A stretch of 42,693 nt of DNA from a virus, in the IMG/VR virus record IMGVR_UViG_3300050132_000132, positions 1 to 42,693 of that record; one strand, given 5' to 3'. The notes beneath the pieces were generated by a model that did not search any database, had not been told where the DNA came from, and saw nothing but the letters and a program-made list of their open reading frames with translations. The position numbers were made by a program, and so were the translations under genes. This document shows positions 5,476 to 22,479 of the stretch, in pieces (the stretch's first letter is position 1; the number at the start of each line of letters is the position of its first letter).

Positions 5476-6549
5476 GCAACTATTTAGTTTCATTGATATA
5501 ATCCCGCCAACCACATTATATTGATTGATTATCACATGCTAACATTGCTTATTACACATGTGTATCAACTAACAATCTAATCCTTTCCAGTACTTACAAC
5601 AAGACTATTCTAGTCCTATTCTCCATCTATTTAGTATTGCTACGTTTAATCAGCCAAACGATATAAGAGTACACATATATAAAGCCGCATGTCTATCTAA
5701 GTATGTGATAATACTGGAGTGCTTTGTATATCGTTGCATCATTACAGGATACAACTATTTAGAGTTGCGAGACTTTCCACTATATCGTCATTTTAAGACA
5801 CATTAACTTACGATAAGAAAGTTAATTACAGGTCAGCAGTACCTAACATCCATACCCACATTGTAACAATTTTACCTACTTAGATAATGAGATCATTCTT
5901 GTCTTGTTGCAACTATTTAGTATTGTTAGCTTCTTTACTAGACAAGTCTAAGTGCTCGGTTTGATTGATCTTATCGCTAACATACTAGAATTGTTGCATT
6001 GCAGCCAACTGAGCAATATTCCGCCATTTAACGTAGTTGTGCCAAGCATGGCACATGTGAGCCATCTGTGACACACTTAGACTATGTAATCATTTCGCAT
6101 ACTTAGCTCACATGATAGCGATAACCTTTCGGTATCATTGCGCTTTGTGTCGTTTTAGTGTGCCAAACGCGCTAAGTACCTGATATTGCGTAGGCGTGTA
6201 ATTGGTAATACCAATTTTATTCAATGATACCGGGGGAGTAGGAAAATGTGTCAGAAGGTCAGACCTCAAGACCGTTCGAGCTCCCTCACACGCGCGAGTC
6301 CACTTTTGAACGCAATCCATCCATATATGCGAATATATGCATGTCTAGTAAGCCTGAATTTCAACTATCTAGTATCACAGGTCTTTTCACAATTAATGCT
6401 TACAAGTAGTTGATTTAACTACAGAACGGTATCTGAATAGGCGGTCTTTAGATACCAAGTAGCTAGTTTATCGAATGTAATTTAGCTAGCCTATCATATA
6501 CCTTTTTTTTCTTGAGATATGCTTTCTGGCATCTAACTAGAATCATTGA
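5476..6549. repeat. Dispersed palindromic repeat family, core ACTATTTAGT
   Basis: The palindrome ACTA-TT-TAGT and close variants recur: GCAACTATTTAGT (5476-5488), CATCTATTTAGTATTG (5624-5639), GACTA-TTC-TAGTC (5602-5614), CAACTATTTAGAGTTG (5752-5767), GCAACTATTTAGTATTG (5909-5925), CAACTATCTAGTATCAC (6362-6378) and CATCTAACTAGAATC (6530-6544). The copies share a left flank GCAA or CATC and lie 40-440 bases apart. Each is a short dyad suited to a dimeric DNA-binding protein. Confidence 0.55.
6131..6231. repeat. 10-bp perfect inverted repeat enclosing a hairpin
   Basis: GGTATCATTG (6131-6140) is matched by its exact reverse complement at 6222-6231. Between them lies AATTGGT-AAT-ACCAATT (6200-6216), a tight 7-bp hairpin. 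The block is GC-richer than its surroundings. It could be a folded RNA, a nicking or resolution site, or an operator. Confidence 0.5.
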
Positions 6550-7034: not shown

Positions 7035-7649
7035 ATGCAATTTACCGAGTATGAAATTTCCCCTGAGCTTAAATTGGAAGTTAAAAAGAAAGCTTTAAAG
7101 TATCCGTTCAAAACGCTCAAACCAGGTAAGAGTTTTTATGTTGATTGTAGTGAGGTAAACGAGCTTAGTTTTAGAGCGTTGGTTAGTGCTGCTAATGGCA
7201 AACTTGAAGATAATCTAAAATGTTTTAAACATAAGAAACTAAATAAAGATGGAACCATAAAAGCTGAATTTTTAGAGGTTGGTAATATAGGAAGCAAGAA
7301 ACTAGGAAAAACCGAAGCTGTTTATGATTGTGAAATTTTTGAACTATCTCCTTTGATGAAAGAATATCTTGAAACTGGTAGCATTAAATATACTTACCCA
7401 TTTGAAAAATTAACAGAAGGCATGTGCTTTACCGTTCCGCTTGGGCAGACTACTGAAGGATCATTGCGAGTAACATGCATTGCTAAATCTAAAATTTACG
7501 GTAAGAAATTTATAGTTTTAAAGCATGACGAACCGTATAACTGTTTTGAGGTTGCTTGCATTAAATTTAAAGAAAAGGTTGCTTACCCTGTAACAGAAAT
7601 GTCAAATAACGCAATTGTGCGTGAAGCGGGTTACGCAAATGAGGCGTAA
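7035..7649 (+). CDS. Duplicated YPF-module protein, 204 aa
   Basis: Two related halves are visible. The first begins LKYPFKTLKPGKSFYV (residues about 21-36); the second carries YTYPFEKLTEGMCFTV (about 118-133). The pattern YPFxxLxxGxxFxV also occurs in the highly expressed protein at 13909-14535 (FKYPFDSLEVGASFFV). Phages of many hosts carry uncharacterised proteins with this signature; no function is known to me. It is the first gene of the rightward operon, with AAAGGAGAC as ribosome site. Two tandem modules in one chain suggest a binding scaffold rather than an enzyme, but this is inference. Confidence 0.8.
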   Translation: MQFTEYEISPELKLEVKKKALKYPFKTLKPGKSFYVDCSEVNELSFRALVSAANGKLEDNLKCFKHKKLNKDGTIKAEFLEVGNIGSKKLGKTEAVYDCEIFELSPLMKEYLETGSIKYTYPFEKLTEGMCFTVPLGQTTEGSLRVTCIAKSKIYGKKFIVLKHDEPYNCFEVACIKFKEKVAYPVTEMSNNAIVREAGYANEA

Positions 7650-9978: not shown

Positions 9979-10304
9979 AAGAGTTTAGTGCTGAGCGCGA
10001 ACTTGCCGATGAGAATAAAGAAATGATACAGAAGGAAGAACGTGATTTATTCTTAACTGAGTTGCTTGGCTTTAAAGTACACCACGATCCTGTTGATTAC
10101 GATAGGAACGAACCTAGACGGCTAGCGCCTATTGACTTTTCAACTTGGGAAAATTTCGGTAGGTTGTTTGAGTTTGCTGAAAAGCAAACTTGGTGGATTG
10201 ATTTTGTATTATTTTGCACAGACTGCGATAGTTTTTATTGTTCTATAAAACCTAACGAGCGAGCTGATGCTATTTATAAATTTTTAAAAAGGAGAGTACA
10301 GTGA
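9975..10304 (+). CDS. Hypothetical protein, 109 aa
   Basis: Begins MKEFSAERELADENKEMIQK; acidic helical N-terminus, then a globular part with DFSTWENFGRLFEFAEKQTW and CTDCDSFYC. The ATG at 9975 overlaps the previous stop and has GGGAGA in front; a GTG-type start 12 bases upstream is less likely. Coupled by GTGA overlap to rtcB. The tight coupling suggests co-production with the RNA ligase, function unknown. Confidence 0.7.
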   Translation: MKEFSAERELADENKEMIQKEERDLFLTELLGFKVHHDPVDYDRNEPRRLAPIDFSTWENFGRLFEFAEKQTWWIDFVLFCTDCDSFYCSIKPNERADAIYKFLKRRVQ

Positions 10305-11416
10305 AAGAGACTCACATATTCGCTGAACATGTTGAACAAGAAGCGGTAAGCCAGTTTGAATTGGCTATGCAACAGTCTTATGTTGTTAAAGGCGCATTAA
10401 TGGCCGATGCTCATACTGGCTATGTATTACCCATCGGTGCTGTTGTTGCTTGCAAAGATGTTATAGTTCCTGCTTACATTGGCTACGATGTAGGATGCGG
10501 AGTTTGTGCTGTTCCCACTACTTTCAAACGTAAAGATGTTGAAGCTAATGCTAAAGTTATTTTTGAAGCTATTTATAAAGCCGTTCCTACAGGATTTGCC
10601 CATAATCAGCACGATCTAATTTGGGATGCAAGTACTGAGCATGAAATGAGTGATAAATTGTGTGAAATATTTAGCAAAAATGGTTTAAAACAATTAGGTT
10701 CGCTCGGTTCTGGTAATCATTTTATAGAGATAGGATATGATGAAAACGATGTAGTTTGGATTATTGTTCATTCCGGTTCAAGAGGAATTGGCCATGCTGT
10801 TGCGTCTCATTATATGAAAATTGCTTCTGGAAGCAATAAGGCTAAGGAAGGACATTTTGGTCTTGATGTTAATTCAGTAGAAGGTAAAAATTATATTACT
10901 GACATGAATTTTTGCCTTGAGTTTGCGTTGGAAAATAGGAAACGCATTGTCCAAAAAGTTGCTGGCGTTATTAATAGAACAATTAATATGATATACTATT
11001 TAGTTAAAATTGATAAAATTGATAAAATTATTAACAGAAACCATAATCACGCAGAACTTAAAGATGGACTTTGGATTCATCGTAAAGGCGCGACTCACGC
11101 CGAAGATGGAATGCTAGGTGTGATCCCTGGTAATATGCGTGATGGATCATTTATCGTAGCAGGTAAAGGTAATCCTCATTCGCTCTATTCCAGTTCGCAT
11201 GGAGCAGGGCGTGTTTTAGGGCGTAAAGCAGCACAACTTATTTTGAACGTTGAAAATTTTACTGAGCAAATGAAAGGAATTACTGCTAAGGTTTGCGATA
11301 AGACGTTAGACGAATCTCCCAGTGCTTATAAAAATATATTTGAAGTAATGGAATTGCAAAAGGAATTAGTTACCGTGATACATCATATTAAACCCATTAT
11401 CAACATAAAAGCATAA
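10301..11416 (+). CDS. rtcB: RtcB-type RNA ligase, 371 aa
   Basis: Carries all hallmark motifs of the tRNA-splicing/RNA-repair ligase RtcB: MADAHTGYVLPIGAVVA (residues about 34-50), GYDVGCGV with the metal-binding Asp63/Cys66, GSLGSGNHFIEI, VHSGSRGIGH, HRKGATHA, IPGNMRDGSFIVAGKGN and the SSHGAGR box containing the His that is guanylylated. RtcB joins 3'-phosphate or 2',3'-cyclic phosphate ends to 5'-OH RNA ends using GTP and manganese. At 371 residues it is a compact version (E. coli RtcB is about 408). GTG start in GTGA overlap with the preceding gene. A phage copy probably repairs tRNAs cut by host defence nucleases; that role is inferred. Confidence 0.95.
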   Translation: MKETHIFAEHVEQEAVSQFELAMQQSYVVKGALMADAHTGYVLPIGAVVACKDVIVPAYIGYDVGCGVCAVPTTFKRKDVEANAKVIFEAIYKAVPTGFAHNQHDLIWDASTEHEMSDKLCEIFSKNGLKQLGSLGSGNHFIEIGYDENDVVWIIVHSGSRGIGHAVASHYMKIASGSNKAKEGHFGLDVNSVEGKNYITDMNFCLEFALENRKRIVQKVAGVINRTINMIYYLVKIDKIDKIINRNHNHAELKDGLWIHRKGATHAEDGMLGVIPGNMRDGSFIVAGKGNPHSLYSSSHGAGRVLGRKAAQLILNVENFTEQMKGITAKVCDKTLDESPSAYKNIFEVMELQKELVTVIHHIKPIINIKA

Positions 11417-11799: not shown

Positions 11800-12288
11800 G
11801 TGAATTATTGGATTATTACAGATACCCATTTAGGTCATAATAAACTTGTTGATGAAGGTTATCGGCCTAAAGGATTTGAAGAATTAATTTTTAAACATTT
11901 GTATATGGTTAAACCCACAGATGTGCTTATTTGCTTAGGAGATGTTTGTATAGGCAGCGATGCTTATTGGCATAATCGTATAATGCAACATTGGGTTGGT
12001 AATAAATGTTGGCTTGTTAAAGGCAATCACGATAATAAATCCAATAGTTGGTATTTAAATGCAGGTTGGGATTGTGTGAGTGAATCTTTAACCTTGAACA
12101 TTTATGGTAAAGATATTTTGTTTTCTCATTGTCCTGTAACTAAACATGATAATTTTGATCTAAACATTCATGGTCATTTGCATAATACTTTGCATCATGA
12201 AATTGAAGGTCTTGCAGCTAAGCACAAGTTATTGTTTATTGAACATACTTATGCTCCGGTTAGTTTACGAAAATTTATAGGAGCATAA
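11800..12288 (+). CDS. Metallophosphoesterase, 162 aa
   Basis: Calcineurin-like phosphoesterase motifs in order: DTHLGH (residues 8-13), GDV (about 47), KGNHD (about 70-74), FSHCP (about 108) and NIHGHLH (about 121-127). GTG start after AAAGGAGG. Short single-domain form, typical of phage phosphoesterases. It lies beside rtcB and a nuclease, so a role in processing RNA ends (for example removing phosphates) is possible; substrate not predictable. Confidence 0.9.
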   Translation: MNYWIITDTHLGHNKLVDEGYRPKGFEELIFKHLYMVKPTDVLICLGDVCIGSDAYWHNRIMQHWVGNKCWLVKGNHDNKSNSWYLNAGWDCVSESLTLNIYGKDILFSHCPVTKHDNFDLNIHGHLHNTLHHEIEGLAAKHKLLFIEHTYAPVSLRKFIGA

Positions 12289-13262: not shown

Positions 13263-13833
13263 CGAACTTATTGTTACTCCGCTTAAATATCATGTTTGCA
13301 ATTTCTTTCGCGTAAAACGTACCAAAAGACAAATGCTATTGATAACGTTATTGATTGTTGCTTTGGTTGTAGTTGTTCACAGTCTAGCCAGCAGAATTGA
13401 TAAAGCTCCGCTTCAAATGCAAAAGTGTCATACAAGTTTGGCTATTCAGGTTTGCAAACCACCCAGGCTTTCCAGAATGATTAATTATTTTAAATCTAAA
13501 GGCATAGCTTATCCTGAGCAAATGGCTACAGCTGTATTAGAAACCAATAAGCCAAAACTCATGGCGGCAGTGGCTGTGAAGGAAGCAACGCCTTACACGG
13601 TAAAGCACGGTGGCTATAAAAAACGTCATGTTGGTGCTTGGCAAGTAAACGAAAAGCTACATGGGCACGCAGGCAATTTGCCAATAGATCAAGCACTTAA
13701 AGCTGAGCGTATTCTTGACGAATTATTGAAAGAGTCTAATGGTGATATGCGAGTTGCTTTAAATTCATATGGCGGCGACACGCATAACAAGTACGCTAAA
13801 AATATTTTGAAAGATTTATGTGAAATTCCTTGA
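13243..13833 (+). CDS. Zinc-ribbon / TM / lytic transglycosylase-like protein, 196 aa
   Basis: Domain order: a Cys motif CPHC ... C at residues 3-19, a basic stretch RVKRTKRQ, one membrane helix MLLITLLIVALVVVVHSLA (about 31-49), then an SLT-type muramidase-like domain: AAVAVKEATPY with the candidate catalytic Glu (about 113), GAWQV, a helix around the ALKAERILDELL stretch, and ALNSYGGDTHNKY which matches the AYN-G motif. The topology N-in/C-out would place the enzyme in the periplasm to cut peptidoglycan. AGGAGG lies 4-5 bases before the ATG. A cytoplasmic zinc ribbon on a membrane-bound transglycosylase is unusual. Confidence 0.75.
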   Translation: MRCPHCNELIVTPLKYHVCNFFRVKRTKRQMLLITLLIVALVVVVHSLASRIDKAPLQMQKCHTSLAIQVCKPPRLSRMINYFKSKGIAYPEQMATAVLETNKPKLMAAVAVKEATPYTVKHGGYKKRHVGAWQVNEKLHGHAGNLPIDQALKAERILDELLKESNGDMRVALNSYGGDTHNKYAKNILKDLCEIP

Positions 13834-13857
13834 CATAAAAAATAAATTTGATATAGT
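13830..13857 (+). promoter_or_regulatory. Strong rightward promoter before the 13909 gene
   Basis: TTGACA (13830-13835), 16-base spacer and TATAGT (13852-13857) in the extended form TGATATAGT. It nearly repeats the sequence TTTGATACAGTC found at 15453. This is the best match to sigma70 consensus seen in the window. Confidence 0.65.
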
Positions 13858-13908: not shown

Positions 13909-14535
13909 GTGGCACTGGAAAACAAAGCTCAGAAGGCAAAGCGTGAAGCTCTCGCAGCACTACCTGAAATCAATGCAGCTATGGCAGTTGAACCGTTTTA
14001 CGCAATGTGTTCTGTTGAGGTTCTTGCTTACTTGGTAAAGAATGAACTTGCAGTTGGAAACGAAACTATCACTAACGAGCAGGGTTGCATTGCAACTCGC
14101 CTAACCGAAAAAGGAGTTGAAAAAGTCATGAGTGAAACTGCTACTGAAGCTGTTGTTGAAACTGTTGCTGCAAAGCCTACGTTCCAGATCCTGAATGTTG
14201 CTATCCCGGTTTCTACCAAGAAGCGCGCAGGTCGCGTCGGTGGTTTTAAATACCCGTTCGATAGTCTTGAAGTTGGTGCTTCGTTCTTTGTGCCGGTTTC
14301 GGCTGAAGTTCCTAACCCGCTGAAGACGATGGCTAGCACTGTTGTGAATGCTAACGCTCGTTACTCCGTGCCGGTTTTTGAAGAAGATGGTACTACTCCG
14401 AAAATGCGTACCATTGTTAACAAGAAGAATAACACCAGCCGTGAAGATCAGCTTACTCAGAATACCAAAGTGTTCGCTGCTGTTGAGTACACGCTTGACG
14501 GTGTTCAGGGCGCTCTGGTTCACCGGAAAGCCTAA
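13909..14535 (+). CDS. Probably highly expressed YPF-module protein, 208 aa
   Basis: N-terminal helical part (residues 1-75), a low-complexity Thr/Val/Ala linker, then FKYPFDSLEVGASFFVPVSA (about 114-133), the same module that is duplicated in the protein at 7035-7649, and a C-terminal polar region. GTG start with AGGAGGA. Codons are clearly different from the neighbours: CGC/CGT, CTG and CCG instead of AGA, TTA and CCT, as in the capsid gene, which suggests heavy expression. It has its own strong promoter and is followed directly by the tRNA/RNA region. Function unknown; it could be a DNA- or RNA-associated abundant protein. Confidence 0.8.
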   Translation: MALENKAQKAKREALAALPEINAAMAVEPFYAMCSVEVLAYLVKNELAVGNETITNEQGCIATRLTEKGVEKVMSETATEAVVETVAAKPTFQILNVAIPVSTKKRAGRVGGFKYPFDSLEVGASFFVPVSAEVPNPLKTMASTVVNANARYSVPVFEEDGTTPKMRTIVNKKNNTSREDQLTQNTKVFAAVEYTLDGVQGALVHRKA

Positions 14536-14564
14536 TTAGTATTGTAGTTATCCTACAGTGCTAA

Positions 14565-14593
14565 AAGCAAGCCGCTCAAAAGGTGGCTTGCTT
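14565..14593 (+). terminator. Strong hairpin after the 13909 gene
   Basis: AAGCAAGCC (14565-14573) pairs perfectly with GGCTTGCTT (14585-14593) around an 11-base loop. Only two T residues follow, so it may act as a weak terminator, a processing or stability element, or the first stem of the structured RNA that follows. Confidence 0.5.
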
Positions 14594-14676
14594 AACCTGA
14601 GACTTACAGGACAAACTAGGAAGGCTCTTGACACCTTGCGGTGTAACTTGCGGCCGAAGCTAGGTTAACCGCTTGA
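14568..14676 (+). ncRNA. Candidate structured RNA element B, 5' of the tRNA
   Basis: Contains TTAACCT (14592-14598) complementary to AGGTTAA (14662-14668), enclosing ACACC-TTGC-GGTGT. Its end, GGCCGA..CTAGGT.AACCGCT (14652-14673), matches the end of element A at 9311-9330 and shares further short blocks in the same order. It is directly joined to the tRNA. Confidence 0.45.
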
Positions 14677-14679
14677 TTT

Positions 14680-14756
14680 CGGTGTGTAGCTCAGTCTGAT
14701 AGAGTTCTCGCCTTGGACGCGAGATGTCGCAGGTTTAAATCCTGCCGCACCGACCA
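14680..14756 (+). tRNA. tRNA-Pro(UGG)
   Basis: A full cloverleaf of 77 nt with encoded CCA. Acceptor CGGTGTG/CGCACCG (one G-U), D-stem GCTC/GAGT, anticodon stem CTCGC/GCGAG around CTTGGAC, so the anticodon is UGG, and T-stem GCAGG/CCTGC. C1-G72 and A73 are proline identity elements. Odd features: position 37 is A rather than the usual G, and the D-loop has G18-A19 with T-loop TTTAAAT (U56 instead of C56), so the normal G19-C56 pair appears replaced by A19-U56. It is flanked by CTTGA/TCAAG, which could pair and place the tRNA inside a larger RNA. Confidence 0.88.
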
Positions 14757-15386
14757 GTTTCAAGTTAGCAGCAAGGCAGTTCTTAGTTAATAAGAGCCAT
14801 AAATTGCGAAGTGAAGGAAGCCTAATCAACCTTCCGGCGTAAGCAACAAGTCAATTTATGATGGGTGATCCATTAGCCTTGCTGCTAGATAGATCGGAAC
14901 GCTAGGAGAGTCTGGAGCTAGCGTTTAAAAGCAACACCTAAATCTTGTGTTGCATCCAAATGATAAGGCAGGTTTGATTCCTGATCGCTAACCGAGGGCA
15001 GATGCGAAGGAAGTACGGTTCGATTCCGTATGATTGTTCTTGAAGCTACTGAATGTTACAAAACAGCTTCTGAAAAATATCATTCTGATTTTGGTAGAAC
15101 TGCAATATCAAATGTTCAAGTTGGCGCGGATGCTATTAAAGGATATACAGATCAGTTTATCGCTTGAGTAGTTGCAAAGCTGTTGAAGTGATTGCGGAAA
15201 CAGATTATTGTAACAAACGCCTTTGTTCTCTTGAACACTTTAGTAAAACGCCTAACCTTCGGGAACATGCTCTATAGCTAAAGTGGTAAGAACTGTTGAG
15301 GCGAACAAGCAACGCCAAAAACCCTGAATCCGGCAGGAATGCGTAAGTTGGTAACTAACTAAATGAGTCCGGTGAATAGTTACTTT
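14757..15386 (+). ncRNA. Candidate large structured RNA (GOLLD/ROOL-like), downstream of tRNA
   Basis: About 630 nt dense in base-paired elements. 14766-14777 pairs over 12 bp with 14876-14887, enclosing hairpin GTTCTTA/TAAGAGC (14779-14797), stem CATAAATTG/CAATTTATG (14798-14806 with 14852-14860) and inner GGAAG/CTTCC. Next come AACGCTAG/CTAGCGTT (14898-14925), GCAACAC/GTGTTGC (14931-14953), two T-loop-like hairpins (14968-14984, 15014-15030), CGCCTAAC/GTTGAGGCG (15249-15303) and GTAACTA/TAGTTAC (15351-15383). A terminator follows. GOLLD and ROOL are giant phage RNAs often found beside tRNAs; size and setting fit, but the match to either is not proven. One 45-codon frame (15030-15167) lies inside. 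Confidence 0.5.
15030..15167 (+). CDS. Doubtful 45-aa ORF inside the structured region
   Basis: Reads MIVLEATECYKTASEKYHSD and ends GYTDQFIA. Codon choice looks like that of the surrounding genes, but the only ribosome-site-like sequence (AAGGAAG) is 16 bases upstream, with a hairpin TACGG/CCGTA lying between it and the ATG. If that hairpin folds, the distance shrinks. Could be a real small gene, a gene remnant or chance. Confidence 0.3.
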   Translation: MIVLEATECYKTASEKYHSDFGRTAISNVQVGADAIKGYTDQFIA

Positions 15387-15421
15387 AAAGTCCTAATGAT
15401 TAAGTTCATTAGGACTTTTTA
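15387..15421 (+). terminator. Rho-independent terminator
   Basis: AAAGTCCTAATG (15387-15398) pairs over 12 bp with CATTAGGACTTT (15407-15418) around an 8-base loop, followed by a T-rich stretch. It ends the tRNA/ncRNA transcript before the next promoter. Confidence 0.85.
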
Positions 15422-15433
15422 TATTTTTATTTC

Positions 15434-15463
15434 TTGACATTGCTCATTAGTTTTTGATACAGT
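15434..15463 (+). promoter_or_regulatory. Promoter of the lysis module
   Basis: TTGACA (15434-15439), 18-base spacer and TACAGT (15458-15463) in the extended form TGATACAGT. It sits directly after the terminator, so lysis genes get a fresh start. Confidence 0.6.
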
Positions 15464-15505
15464 CACGCCGCAAGGTTCTTAATATCTGTATATTAGGTTT
15501 ATTAT

Positions 15506-15601
15506 ATGAAATGTCAACGAATTCGCAGAACATGCTCGGTGCTTAGAATTTACGGTCACTGTTTCAGAAGTGAATCTTGCAAGGGTTGCAATCCTGAATA
15601 A
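15506..15601 (+). CDS. Small Cys-rich peptide, 31 aa (uncertain)
   Basis: Reads MKCQRIRRTCSVLRIYGHCF and ends CKGCNPE; five cysteines in 31 residues hint at metal binding. The ribosome site is weak (AGG eight bases upstream). It is the first frame behind the promoter at 15434. Function unknown. Confidence 0.4.
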   Translation: MKCQRIRRTCSVLRIYGHCFRSESCKGCNPE

Positions 15602-15610
15602 AGGTCGCTC

Positions 15611-15790
15611 ATGAATCTCTCAGACAGAACTAAAGTAGTTGAGTTGATTATTCCTGCTTTAAATGTTTTAAGGGCTGTTGAGGTTGAGATGTTAGGTTGT
15701 GAGTGTAAGTTTAAATATGTTGCTGGTTCAGCCGCTGACGATCTACTCAATTTAATGATGTTGCTAGGAGTGAATAGAAATGAAGTTTAG
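15611..15790 (+). CDS. Small helical protein, 59 aa, overlapping endolysin start
   Basis: Begins MNLSDRTKVVELIIPALNVL and ends MMLLGVNRNEV, with two amphipathic helices. AAGG lies six bases upstream. It overlaps the endolysin start by 11 bases, so translation of the two is probably coupled. No family recognised. Confidence 0.55.
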   Translation: MNLSDRTKVVELIIPALNVLRAVEVEMLGCECKFKYVAGSAADDLLNLMMLLGVNRNEV

Positions 15791-16268
15791 TCAAAATGGT
15801 TTGAAGCTGCTAGCTAGTAATTCTTATGAGGGTGATATTCTTAGAATTTACAAAGACGCGGCAGGTAAGCCAACGATTGGTGTTGGACACTTGTTAACAA
15901 GTGCTGAAAATGCAAATGGTAAAATTGACATTGCTGGTAAACAGGTGTTAATAGGCTCAGGTATCACTGAACAACAATCGTTAGACTTACTAGCTCAAGA
16001 TGTTAAACCCGCCGAAGATGCTGTTAATTACCACGTTAAAGTTGCTCTAAATCAGAATCAATTTGACGCTTTGGTTATTTTCACTTTCAATGTTGGCACT
16101 GGTGGTTTTGAAAGCTCCTCTCTGCTTACAGCAATAAATGAAAAAGATATTGCCGATATTCCCGAAGACTTTATGAAGTGGGATAAGATAACTAAAAATG
16201 GTGTTCATGTGGTATGCGATGGACTTGTTACGCGCCGGAAACTGGAGATAAAACTATACGATAGCTAA
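15780..16268 (+). CDS. Endolysin, GH24 lysozyme, 162 aa
   Basis: T4/lambdoid lysozyme fold with the canonical triad spacing: Glu17 (YEGD), Asp26 (YKDAAGKPT) and Thr32 (TIGVGH). C-terminal motifs QFDALVIFTFNVG and VCDGLVTRRKLEIKLY agree with the family, which is about 150-170 residues. It cleaves the N-acetylmuramic acid to N-acetylglucosamine bond of the host wall. No signal sequence is visible, so it needs a holin for release. Ribosome site AGGAG nine bases upstream. Confidence 0.95.
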   Translation: MKFSQNGLKLLASNSYEGDILRIYKDAAGKPTIGVGHLLTSAENANGKIDIAGKQVLIGSGITEQQSLDLLAQDVKPAEDAVNYHVKVALNQNQFDALVIFTFNVGTGGFESSSLLTAINEKDIADIPEDFMKWDKITKNGVHVVCDGLVTRRKLEIKLYDS

Positions 16269-16858: not shown

Positions 16859-17415
16859 GGGCTAGTATTCTGAAAGCAGCTATGTTATGTAAACACGCTT
16901 ATGACGGTACTAAAATAGGAGATCATTCATACACTGTTGATTACGACGGGGATAGAACAGTAATTGCTATTGCTGGAACAGCCAATGTTGAGAATGTGAT
17001 TGAAGACGCTTCGTGCTGGCCTAGTCGAACACCGACAGAAGCTTTGGCTCATAATGGTGTGGTTCACGCATTTGAAGAAATGGAAGAAGAGGTTTCCAAA
17101 CATGCAATAAAACCCGGTCCTGTTGTTTTTGCAGGTCATTCTTTAGGTGGTGGTATTGCTCAATTGTTTGCTGAGAAGTTTAAGTGCGAAGTAATTACAT
17201 TTGGTAGTATTAAAACTTATTGGCGCTTTTCAGACATACCTAAGTTACAACATACAATGGTTGTGTGTGAAGATGATCCTGTTCCAATGCTATTAGGTTT
17301 TATGTATACTAATAAAGTAATACCTTTAGTGCTTAAAAAAGATGGAGATTTGCCTGTTGAAGTAGAAGACCATTTCATCGAAGAATACATTAAACGATTG
17401 GAGGTAACAACGTGA
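16855..17415 (+). CDS. Class 3 lipase-like alpha/beta hydrolase, 186 aa
   Basis: Alpha/beta hydrolase with nucleophile elbow GHSLGG (Ser about residue 97), an early GTANVEN strand forming the oxyanion region, acid CEDDPVP (Asp about 142-143) and a C-terminal EDHFIEEY His. It belongs to the fungal-type lipase/DUF2974-like group. No signal peptide. ATG coupled to the stop of the preceding frame. Set between endolysin and holin-like genes, it may attack membrane lipid during lysis, which is inference. Confidence 0.85.
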   Translation: MRASILKAAMLCKHAYDGTKIGDHSYTVDYDGDRTVIAIAGTANVENVIEDASCWPSRTPTEALAHNGVVHAFEEMEEEVSKHAIKPGPVVFAGHSLGGGIAQLFAEKFKCEVITFGSIKTYWRFSDIPKLQHTMVVCEDDPVPMLLGFMYTNKVIPLVLKKDGDLPVEVEDHFIEEYIKRLEVTT

Positions 17416-21519: not shown

Positions 21520-22479
21520 ATGTATGAAATTTTAAATGTGCCTATTCCAGAAGTTAAAGTGAATGTACTTAGTTTTGATGAATTTTACGAATCTATGCAA
21601 AATCAGAAGTATCGTAAACATTACGAAAAGCTTGTGACTAGATCGCAAAATAGAATAGTTGAAGGTTATACTGAAAAACATCATATTATCCCTAAATGTT
21701 TATGTGGTACTAACGATAAAGCTAATTTAGTTAGGCTTACTCCGTCTGAACATTATGTTGCACATCAATTTTTGCTAAAGTGCTTTAAAGGTAATAGAAA
21801 GTTAGTTCATGCTGCTAAAATGATGACTACTAACAAATGGGGTCGCCGTAGCAATAAATTATACGGCTGGTTGAGAAATGAATTGTCAGTAGTTATGAAG
21901 AAAAGAATTGTTTCTGATGAAACTAGGGCTAAAAATAGAGCATATGGCAATAGTGCTGAAGCTAAGGCTAATTTTGCCAAAATTCACGCAGCTCAAATAG
22001 GAACACCTTTTTCGGAAGAGCGTTTGCTTAAAATGTCAATTGCTTCTAAGAAAAGAGGTATTTCTGCTGAAACAAGAGATAAAATGATAATTAGTAGAAA
22101 GGCAGGTGATTACGTCATGTCTGAAGAACAAAAAGATATTTTAAGGCTTGCTCATTTAGGTACTAAGCATTCAAAAGAAACTCTTTTGAAAATGTCAATT
22201 TCTCAAAAAGCAAGACCGCCTAGATCAGCTGAAACTTGTGCTAAAATAAGCGAAAATAATAGGAACAGACCTTCACCTTCTGCTGAAACTAGAGCTAAAA
22301 CATCGGCTAGCTTAATTGGTACAAAGCAATCGCCCGAAACAATAGCTAAAAGAATTGCAACTTTAACAGGCAAAAAACGAGGTAGCTATAAAGAAGGTTC
22401 TATTGAGAACATGTTAGAAGGTAAGAGAAAGGCAAAAGTACTTAGAGAAATTCTAGCAGCGTGGAGTTGCGCGTTATGA
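21520..22479 (+). CDS. HNH homing endonuclease with NUMOD3 repeats, 319 aa
   Basis: HNH-type core EKHHIIPKCLCGTNDKANLV with RLTPSEHYVAHQFLLK (residues about 52-90), followed by repeated NUMOD3-type motifs such as SEERLLKMSIASKKRG, SAETRDKM, SKETLLKMSISQKAR, SAETRAKT and SPETIAKR, which bind DNA in the minor groove. It is a free-standing homing endonuclease, likely inserted between the phosphoesterase and large terminase genes. Codon use is AT-rich like its neighbours. Ribosome site CGGAGG. Confidence 0.93.
   Translation: MYEILNVPIPEVKVNVLSFDEFYESMQNQKYRKHYEKLVTRSQNRIVEGYTEKHHIIPKCLCGTNDKANLVRLTPSEHYVAHQFLLKCFKGNRKLVHAAKMMTTNKWGRRSNKLYGWLRNELSVVMKKRIVSDETRAKNRAYGNSAEAKANFAKIHAAQIGTPFSEERLLKMSIASKKRGISAETRDKMIISRKAGDYVMSEEQKDILRLAHLGTKHSKETLLKMSISQKARPPRSAETCAKISENNRNRPSPSAETRAKTSASLIGTKQSPETIAKRIATLTGKKRGSYKEGSIENMLEGKRKAKVLREILAAWSCAL

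Follow-up and report, generated by a model that had tools for sequence, protein, structure and literature searches.

The locus

The window, by which we mean the whole stretch of 42,693 nucleotides of viral DNA that was analysed, comes, to judge from its gene content, from a siphophage that is distantly akin to the D3-like and Septimatrevirus/Lokivirus-like phages. The region of interest follows a gene of the phrog_7597 family, which in related phages stands just ahead of the lysis genes, some of them with a tRNA at that place. Its features are listed here in order.

13830-13857, + strand: promoter-like site (TTGACA-16-TATAGT with an extended -10) ahead of the gene upstream of the RNA, 11/12 in a consensus scan alone
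13909-14535, + strand: upstream gene, phrog_7597, function unknown
14536-14593, + strand: two consecutive 12-pair hairpins directly after the stop codon (fold of 14536-14680, z -3.9; a perfect 9-bp arm pair)
14680-14756, + strand: tRNA-Pro (UGG), by ARAGORN and Rfam (60.9 bits)
14766-14887, + strand: multibranch domain closed by a perfect stem of 12 bp (fold of 14757-14900, z -4.3)
14898-14953, + strand: two hairpins of 8 bp and 7 bp, between the multibranch domain and the T-arm module (fold and stem check)
14963-15036, + strand: 5' half of the twin T-arm RNA motif (covariance model R1)
15030-15167, + strand: 45-aa ORF, probably a small gene (codon score and fold z)
15164-15277, + strand: possible second small ORF of 37 aa, its TTG start overlapping the preceding stop (codon score 0.18, borderline)
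15387-15421, + strand: intrinsic terminator closing the transcription unit (perfect 13-bp stem and T run)
15780-16268, + strand: endolysin (phrog_7), the first recognisable lysis gene downstream

Elsewhere in the window there are genes for an RtcB RNA ligase (10301-11416) and a calcineurin-like phosphoesterase (11800-12288), and a homing endonuclease gene (phrog_655, 21520-22479) immediately upstream of the gene for the large terminase subunit. The products of 7035-7649 and 13909-14535 fall into the related phage families phrog_10287 and phrog_7597 and are probably paralogues.

The first-pass annotation had taken 14565-15421 to be a single structured RNA of about 860 nt with an embedded tRNA, possibly a giant RNA of the GOLLD/ROOL type. 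Much of the detail behind that proposal is borne out, and each of the named stems that was checked is in place:

14766-14777/14876-14887: perfect stem, 12 bp
14798-14806/14852-14860: perfect stem, 9 bp
14898-14905/14918-14925: stem, 8 bp
15236-15243/15278-15285: stem, 8 bp
15351-15357/15377-15383: stem, 7 bp

The region holds 9 stems of at least 8 bp, against a mean of 1.8 and a maximum of 4 in 30 dinucleotide shuffles. The tRNA-Pro is confirmed by both programs, the strong terminator at the end of the region has its 13-bp stem at 15387-15418, and the two T-loop-like hairpins are true ones, both exact to the tRNA T-arm consensus GGTTYRANTCC (at 14971 and 15017). That consensus occurs at four sites in the whole window (one of them the tRNA-Pro's own), where 0.2 would be expected; the two hairpins are 46 nt apart, a spacing too small for two tRNAs. 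The CTTGA/TCAAG flanks that had suggested insertion of the tRNA into a larger fold are also present, but at just 5 bp they carry no evidential weight.

The single body is another matter. Beyond the two strongly folding stretches listed above, local z values are -1.1 for 14890-15036, +1.15 for 15030-15170 (that is, worse than most shuffles), -2.0 for 15170-15310 and -2.8 for 15285-15425, which includes the terminator; the whole of 14757-15400 does not stand out (z -0.65, 20 shuffles). Since the fold of 15030-15167 is not better than expected by chance and its codon usage resembles that of genes (the 45-aa ORF scores 0.516 bits per codon, at about the 90th percentile among the genes of this phage, the 98th percentile of noncoding sequence being 0.15), the region is probably not one continuous RNA of 860 nt. 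A three-tier stem at ~15218-15303 lies partly across the 37-aa ORF. As for the name, the GOLLD covariance model (RF02032) has no match in the window at E<=10, and the ROOL model (RF03087) gives 10.4 bits (E 0.32) elsewhere in the window, far from the region; with neither model matching here, the label of giant GOLLD/ROOL RNA is wrong. What survives of the proposal is a structured phage RNA beside a tRNA and with true T-loops, its extent being doubtful. Beneath the wrong label lies a genuinely new RNA family.

Homology searches with the region at large yielded little: blastn with the whole of it matched, in phages, the tRNA alone, a pattern scan with the P1 stem gave a single, unrelated match, and no relatives of the multibranch domain (14766-14887) were found for covariation. 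The closest relative of the window's phage (L046, with a terminase 86% identical) begins downstream of the region.

A motif with two T-arms

Scanning for pairs of T-arms with a spacing of 18-46 nt picked out many phage contigs, and a subset of these shares with the window the linker TCGYTNRYCGAG...GGTGNGAAGGGAG. BLAST with one core retrieved unannotated copies in phages OBP, KpLz-2_45, SXP01, D6, Holyagarpour and Ebordelon; the OBP core occupies 16912-17076 of NC_016571, on the minus strand. Querying with a consensus brought in FBKp24, in which the motif is likewise unannotated, Centimanus and some Vibrio plasmids of ~0.9 Mb. Nine other phage sequences, the window being excluded, went into a covariance model (R1; 166 positions, 35 pairs). 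The linker pattern without any T-arm letters independently yielded 11 more members (115-166 bits) along with two weaker ones; pattern matches in genome contigs numbered 63, mostly due to chance, and of these L278 alone was confirmed. The motif was not found in E. coli genomes. Other recurring close T-arm pairs are present in the viral contigs L129, L163, L135, L145, L158, L188 and L244, which score poorly or not at all with R1; some of them may be further tRNA-like RNAs.

The full motif, which we call the twin T-arm RNA, spans ~170 nt and occurs, for the most part complete, in many unrelated phages. It begins with a T-arm hairpin that has a true T-loop, followed by a D-arm-like mini-hairpin and a purine-rich linker that hardly varies at GGTGNGAAGGGAG. 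After the linker come another T-arm-like hairpin and one that is variable. Next are the CTC-UGGU-GAG hairpin, one of the GGCCC type whose loop pairs with GGGC of the 3' end (a pseudoknot that was first spotted by eye) and, finally, one that carries the loop CGGAAU. In the loop of T-arm 1, the equivalents of C56 and A58 are present in all 21 full-length members and that of U55 in 19; the loop of T-arm 2 is looser in sequence. The mini-hairpin after T-arm 1 reads TCG-N5-YGAGG, and in some members CTC-GTTGGTA-GAG, like a tRNA D-arm. The order of the arms, T and then D, is the reverse of that in tRNA. In a second form of the family, seen in L190, L270, L153 and others, the 5' half is retained but the end is CCGGGAAAGACCGG.

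The pairing is strongly covarying. Of the pair cells in 29 aligned members, 94.9% hold standard pairs, and 29 of the 35 modelled pairs show double compensatory changes; the covariation measure is 0.507, against 0.120 for shuffles and 0.04-0.084 when the partners are slid. Because that alignment had been fitted to the model, the count was redone on a plain MAFFT alignment of the 21 full-length members, which is not structure-fitted, with 0.565 against 0.158 for shuffles. (Shuffles ignore relatedness; the slid-partner controls, which preserve it, are far lower, at no more than 0.108.) The central pair of the pseudoknot is C-G in 15 of these 21 members, U-A in five, A-U in one and broken in none. 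The motif is a conserved, covarying RNA, and the window matches its 5' half.

These counts also dispose of the thought that the T-arms are what deletions have left of a decaying tRNA array. The T-arm sequences are, to be sure, identical to the tRNA consensus and lie near a tRNA, and chance T-arm pairs do occur in tRNA arrays; but the tRNA model has no match at the core, and the hairpins, those of the 3' half and the pseudoknot among them, covary across unrelated phages, which decay cannot yield. A tRNA pseudogene array is thus ruled out as nearly as such things can be, and we consider it wholly improbable.

Scanning the whole window with Rfam 15 returned only the tRNA, and a permissive scan of 14400-15600 added nothing credible. 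No Rfam family matches at the motif core and the motif is absent from Rfam 15; a literature search, which covered open-licence papers only, found nothing. On these two counts the motif is rated as new and without counterpart in known families; an earlier description elsewhere is possible. (An Rfam family of another kind came up in L005, where 908-1101 matches the RT-15 RNA, RF03018, at 133.7 bits, upstream of an endolysin relative.)

Genomic settings

Each of the 38 carrier records has exactly one copy, and a repeat-like or multi-copy mobile element was rejected on that account. The core often follows a phage tRNA directly: it starts at a tRNA 3' end or a few bases from it in several loci, among them L231, L181, L212, L278, L149, L194 and L180, and lies within tRNA arrays in KpLz, OBP, SXP01 and FBKp24. 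Many members have ordinary protein genes on both sides and no tRNA in the vicinity (L255, L262, L257 and L179), and no neighbour gene recurs. The plasmid copies, in ~0.9-Mb circular plasmids of Vibrio vulnificus and V. parahaemolyticus, carry the full motif at 148 bits (L342, 4993-5178; L343, 4993-5179), upstream of an ankyrin-repeat gene and with no tRNA near. Ahead of the element in L153 (minus strand, 5940-6110) lies a near-copy of the beginning of the gene behind it (atgaaccc..tctgaatataacgatcc), as if the element had been inserted with duplication.

Some settings are much larger than the motif and bear on the suggestion of a large ornate phage RNA, working like GOLLD or ROOL and possibly self-assembling around tRNAs, that has the twin T-arm module as a conserved domain. 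In L190/L345 and L346 the core sits inside a common conserved noncoding RNA of ~586-669 nt, and a two-sequence consensus fold has 13 doubly compensated pairs with none broken. The cores of KpLz, OBP, SXP01 and Holyagarpour lie in noncoding gaps of ~0.7-1.1 kb, mostly near tRNAs, and the window has more stems flanking its core on either side. Yet many members amount to just ~170 nt squeezed between protein genes, flanking domains vary from phage to phage, and in the window a probable gene interrupts the region. We regard this suggestion as unlikely. The L190/L345/L346 RNA nevertheless indicates that giant-RNA settings exist for the core, and the window's 5' domain (the 12-bp stem, 14766-14887) could be part of one. 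The conserved RNA of ~600-670 nt, which has compensatory hairpins, is at 5167-5840 of L190, in L345 and in L346 (minus strand, ~12.5-13.3 kb); the ~1.1-kb noncoding gap after the tRNA array in KpLz-2_45 (L247, 1936-3058) and in L252, with the core mid-gap and a terminator at its end, is, in these isolated Klebsiella phages, a candidate for a giant RNA.

The copy in the window

R1 matches the window, which its training set did not contain, at 14963-15097 with 54.8 bits (E 2.2e-17), and this is its sole match in the 42.7 kb. The alignment is strong up to 15039 and unreliable after that point. Within the sound part there follow, in the order of the family, T-arm 1 (stem and loop at ~14968-14984), the D-arm-like mini-hairpin TCGCTAACCGA with its TCG..GAGG, the purine linker GGGCAGATGCGAAGGAAG, T-arm 2 (~15013-15030) and TGATTG, whose TGAT is also that of the family. 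In T-arm 1 the loop reads TTTGATT, a T occupying the position equivalent to C56, and G faces A in the outer pair. For the variable hairpin, the CTC-UGGU-GAG hairpin, the pseudoknotted hairpin and the CGGAAU hairpin there is no credible alignment past 15039; this 3' half being absent, the window is filed as a carrier of the 5' module and not as a full member. It very probably carries, then, the 5' half of a motif that we found under no name.

What takes the place of the 3' half is the 45-aa ORF, which has no homologue in phages. Its ATG (15030) touches the 3' strand of T-arm 2, and GAAGGAAG of the linker is upstream of that arm, so that folding of T-arm 2 would place GAAGGAAG beside the ATG. 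We picture a recombination event that would have joined a small gene to the 5' half, the 45-aa gene replacing the 3' half and the surviving half probably doubling as its translation leader. That the half does act as a leader is quite conceivable, if somewhat short of an even chance.

One may go further and read the window's element as simply a structured translation leader, in which T-arm 2, lying between Shine-Dalgarno sequence and ATG, sets the expression of the 45-aa ORF. A GGAAG ends ~17 nt ahead of the ATG at 15030, a gap that T-arm 2 exactly fills, and the codons of the ORF are gene-like. The other members examined have no comparable ORF starting at the equivalent ATG, however, and their 3' domain is conserved RNA; a leader role cannot therefore be the function of the family, and as the whole account of the window's element it is a possibility that we entertain tentatively. 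On the preferred reading, of a conserved RNA cut in half by recombination, the window's half would still work, as leader or as RNA. Lacking the 3' half, it could also be a decaying remnant.

No relative of the window's phage with phrog_7597 as neighbour has a twin T-arm RNA (R1 on 50 records gave one weak match). Because the RNA is absent from these relatives, the window has probably gained it horizontally.

What the RNA might do

The resemblance to tRNA suggests a function. The twin T-arm RNA would be made with the phage tRNAs or with a late operon, would mimic the tRNA elbow and would thereby capture either a host factor that reads the T-arms of tRNAs or the ribosome. Transcription with the tRNAs, elbow mimicry and the target are all things that we infer, and the identification as an elbow mimic, made only from resemblance and position, is offered as a tentative one. 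Against this, a strict elbow mimic would need better conservation than the T-arm 2 loop and the two D-like loops show, and many members lie between protein genes with no tRNA nearby and without a recurring neighbour. Motif identity and proposed mechanism, taken together, are the best explanation of the window that we have, with a chance slightly better than even. The broadest version, a widespread class of phage RNA with reversed T and D modules and a pseudoknotted 3' domain that would be made along with phage tRNAs, would hijack a host tRNA-reading factor or the ribosome and would form the heart of a giant RNA in some phages, is rather doubtful.

A different function comes to mind since Y RNAs are known tRNA mimics (PMC12282133) and the window encodes RtcB: the element might be a bacterial Y RNA of the YrlA type, acting with the phage RtcB in RNA repair. 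The YrlA model (RF02553) reaches only 9.3 bits (E 2.8), and this inside the tRNA; the Ro60/TROVE (Rsr) protein is found in none of 28 records, the window included, though records may be fragments. RtcB is encoded by only three of the 27 other carriers, so that no link between RtcB and the RNA was found. Having neither model match nor co-occurrence in its favour, this proposal is already largely refuted and very improbable.

Phages have few conserved RNAs besides tRNAs (GOLLD and ROOL), and what these do is still to be settled. The twin T-arm motif is compact, strongly covarying and single-copy, and its presence in isolated laboratory phages such as OBP makes it experimentally accessible; its tRNA-like hairpins provide a concrete first hypothesis on function. 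It is also a candidate for an Rfam family, which current annotation of jumbo phages misses.

Comparison with known systems

The phage ICP1 makes an abundant noncoding RNA of ~800 nt (PMC7567579). The window resembles it in having a long noncoding region beside lysis genes, but ICP1 (L253) has neither an R1 match nor a twin T-arm, and its RNA was rejected as a relative.

GOLLD RNAs can reach several hundred nt and have, beside a conserved part, a 5' part that varies (PMC12286853). Like GOLLD, the twin T-arm RNA is a phage RNA near tRNAs. GOLLD is marked by proximity to tRNAs or by a linker that contains one, and the window has its tRNA-Pro at 14680-14756; GOLLD also assembles into a cage of 14 subunits. 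Unlike GOLLD, the core is ~170 nt long and often stands alone. ROOL is likewise a structured phage RNA, found near tRNA islands. Among the matches listed for the member loci L246-L250, L194, L190, L236 and L224 there is none to GOLLD at E<=0.5 and none to ROOL.

With YrlA and the bacterial Y RNAs the motif shares the idea of tRNA mimicry and parts that resemble T- and D-arms; it differs from them in that the model has no match at the core and its carriers lack the Ro60/TROVE protein.

The tRNA model itself (RF00005) has no match over 14757-15421, where only tRNA-Sec appears, at 19.6 bits (E 0.64). Unlike a tRNA, the motif has its T-arm before the D-like arm and has no acceptor or anticodon arm, but it shares with tRNA the T-arm stem, a T-loop with invariant equivalents of C56 and A58 and, in many members, a D-arm-like CTC..GAG.
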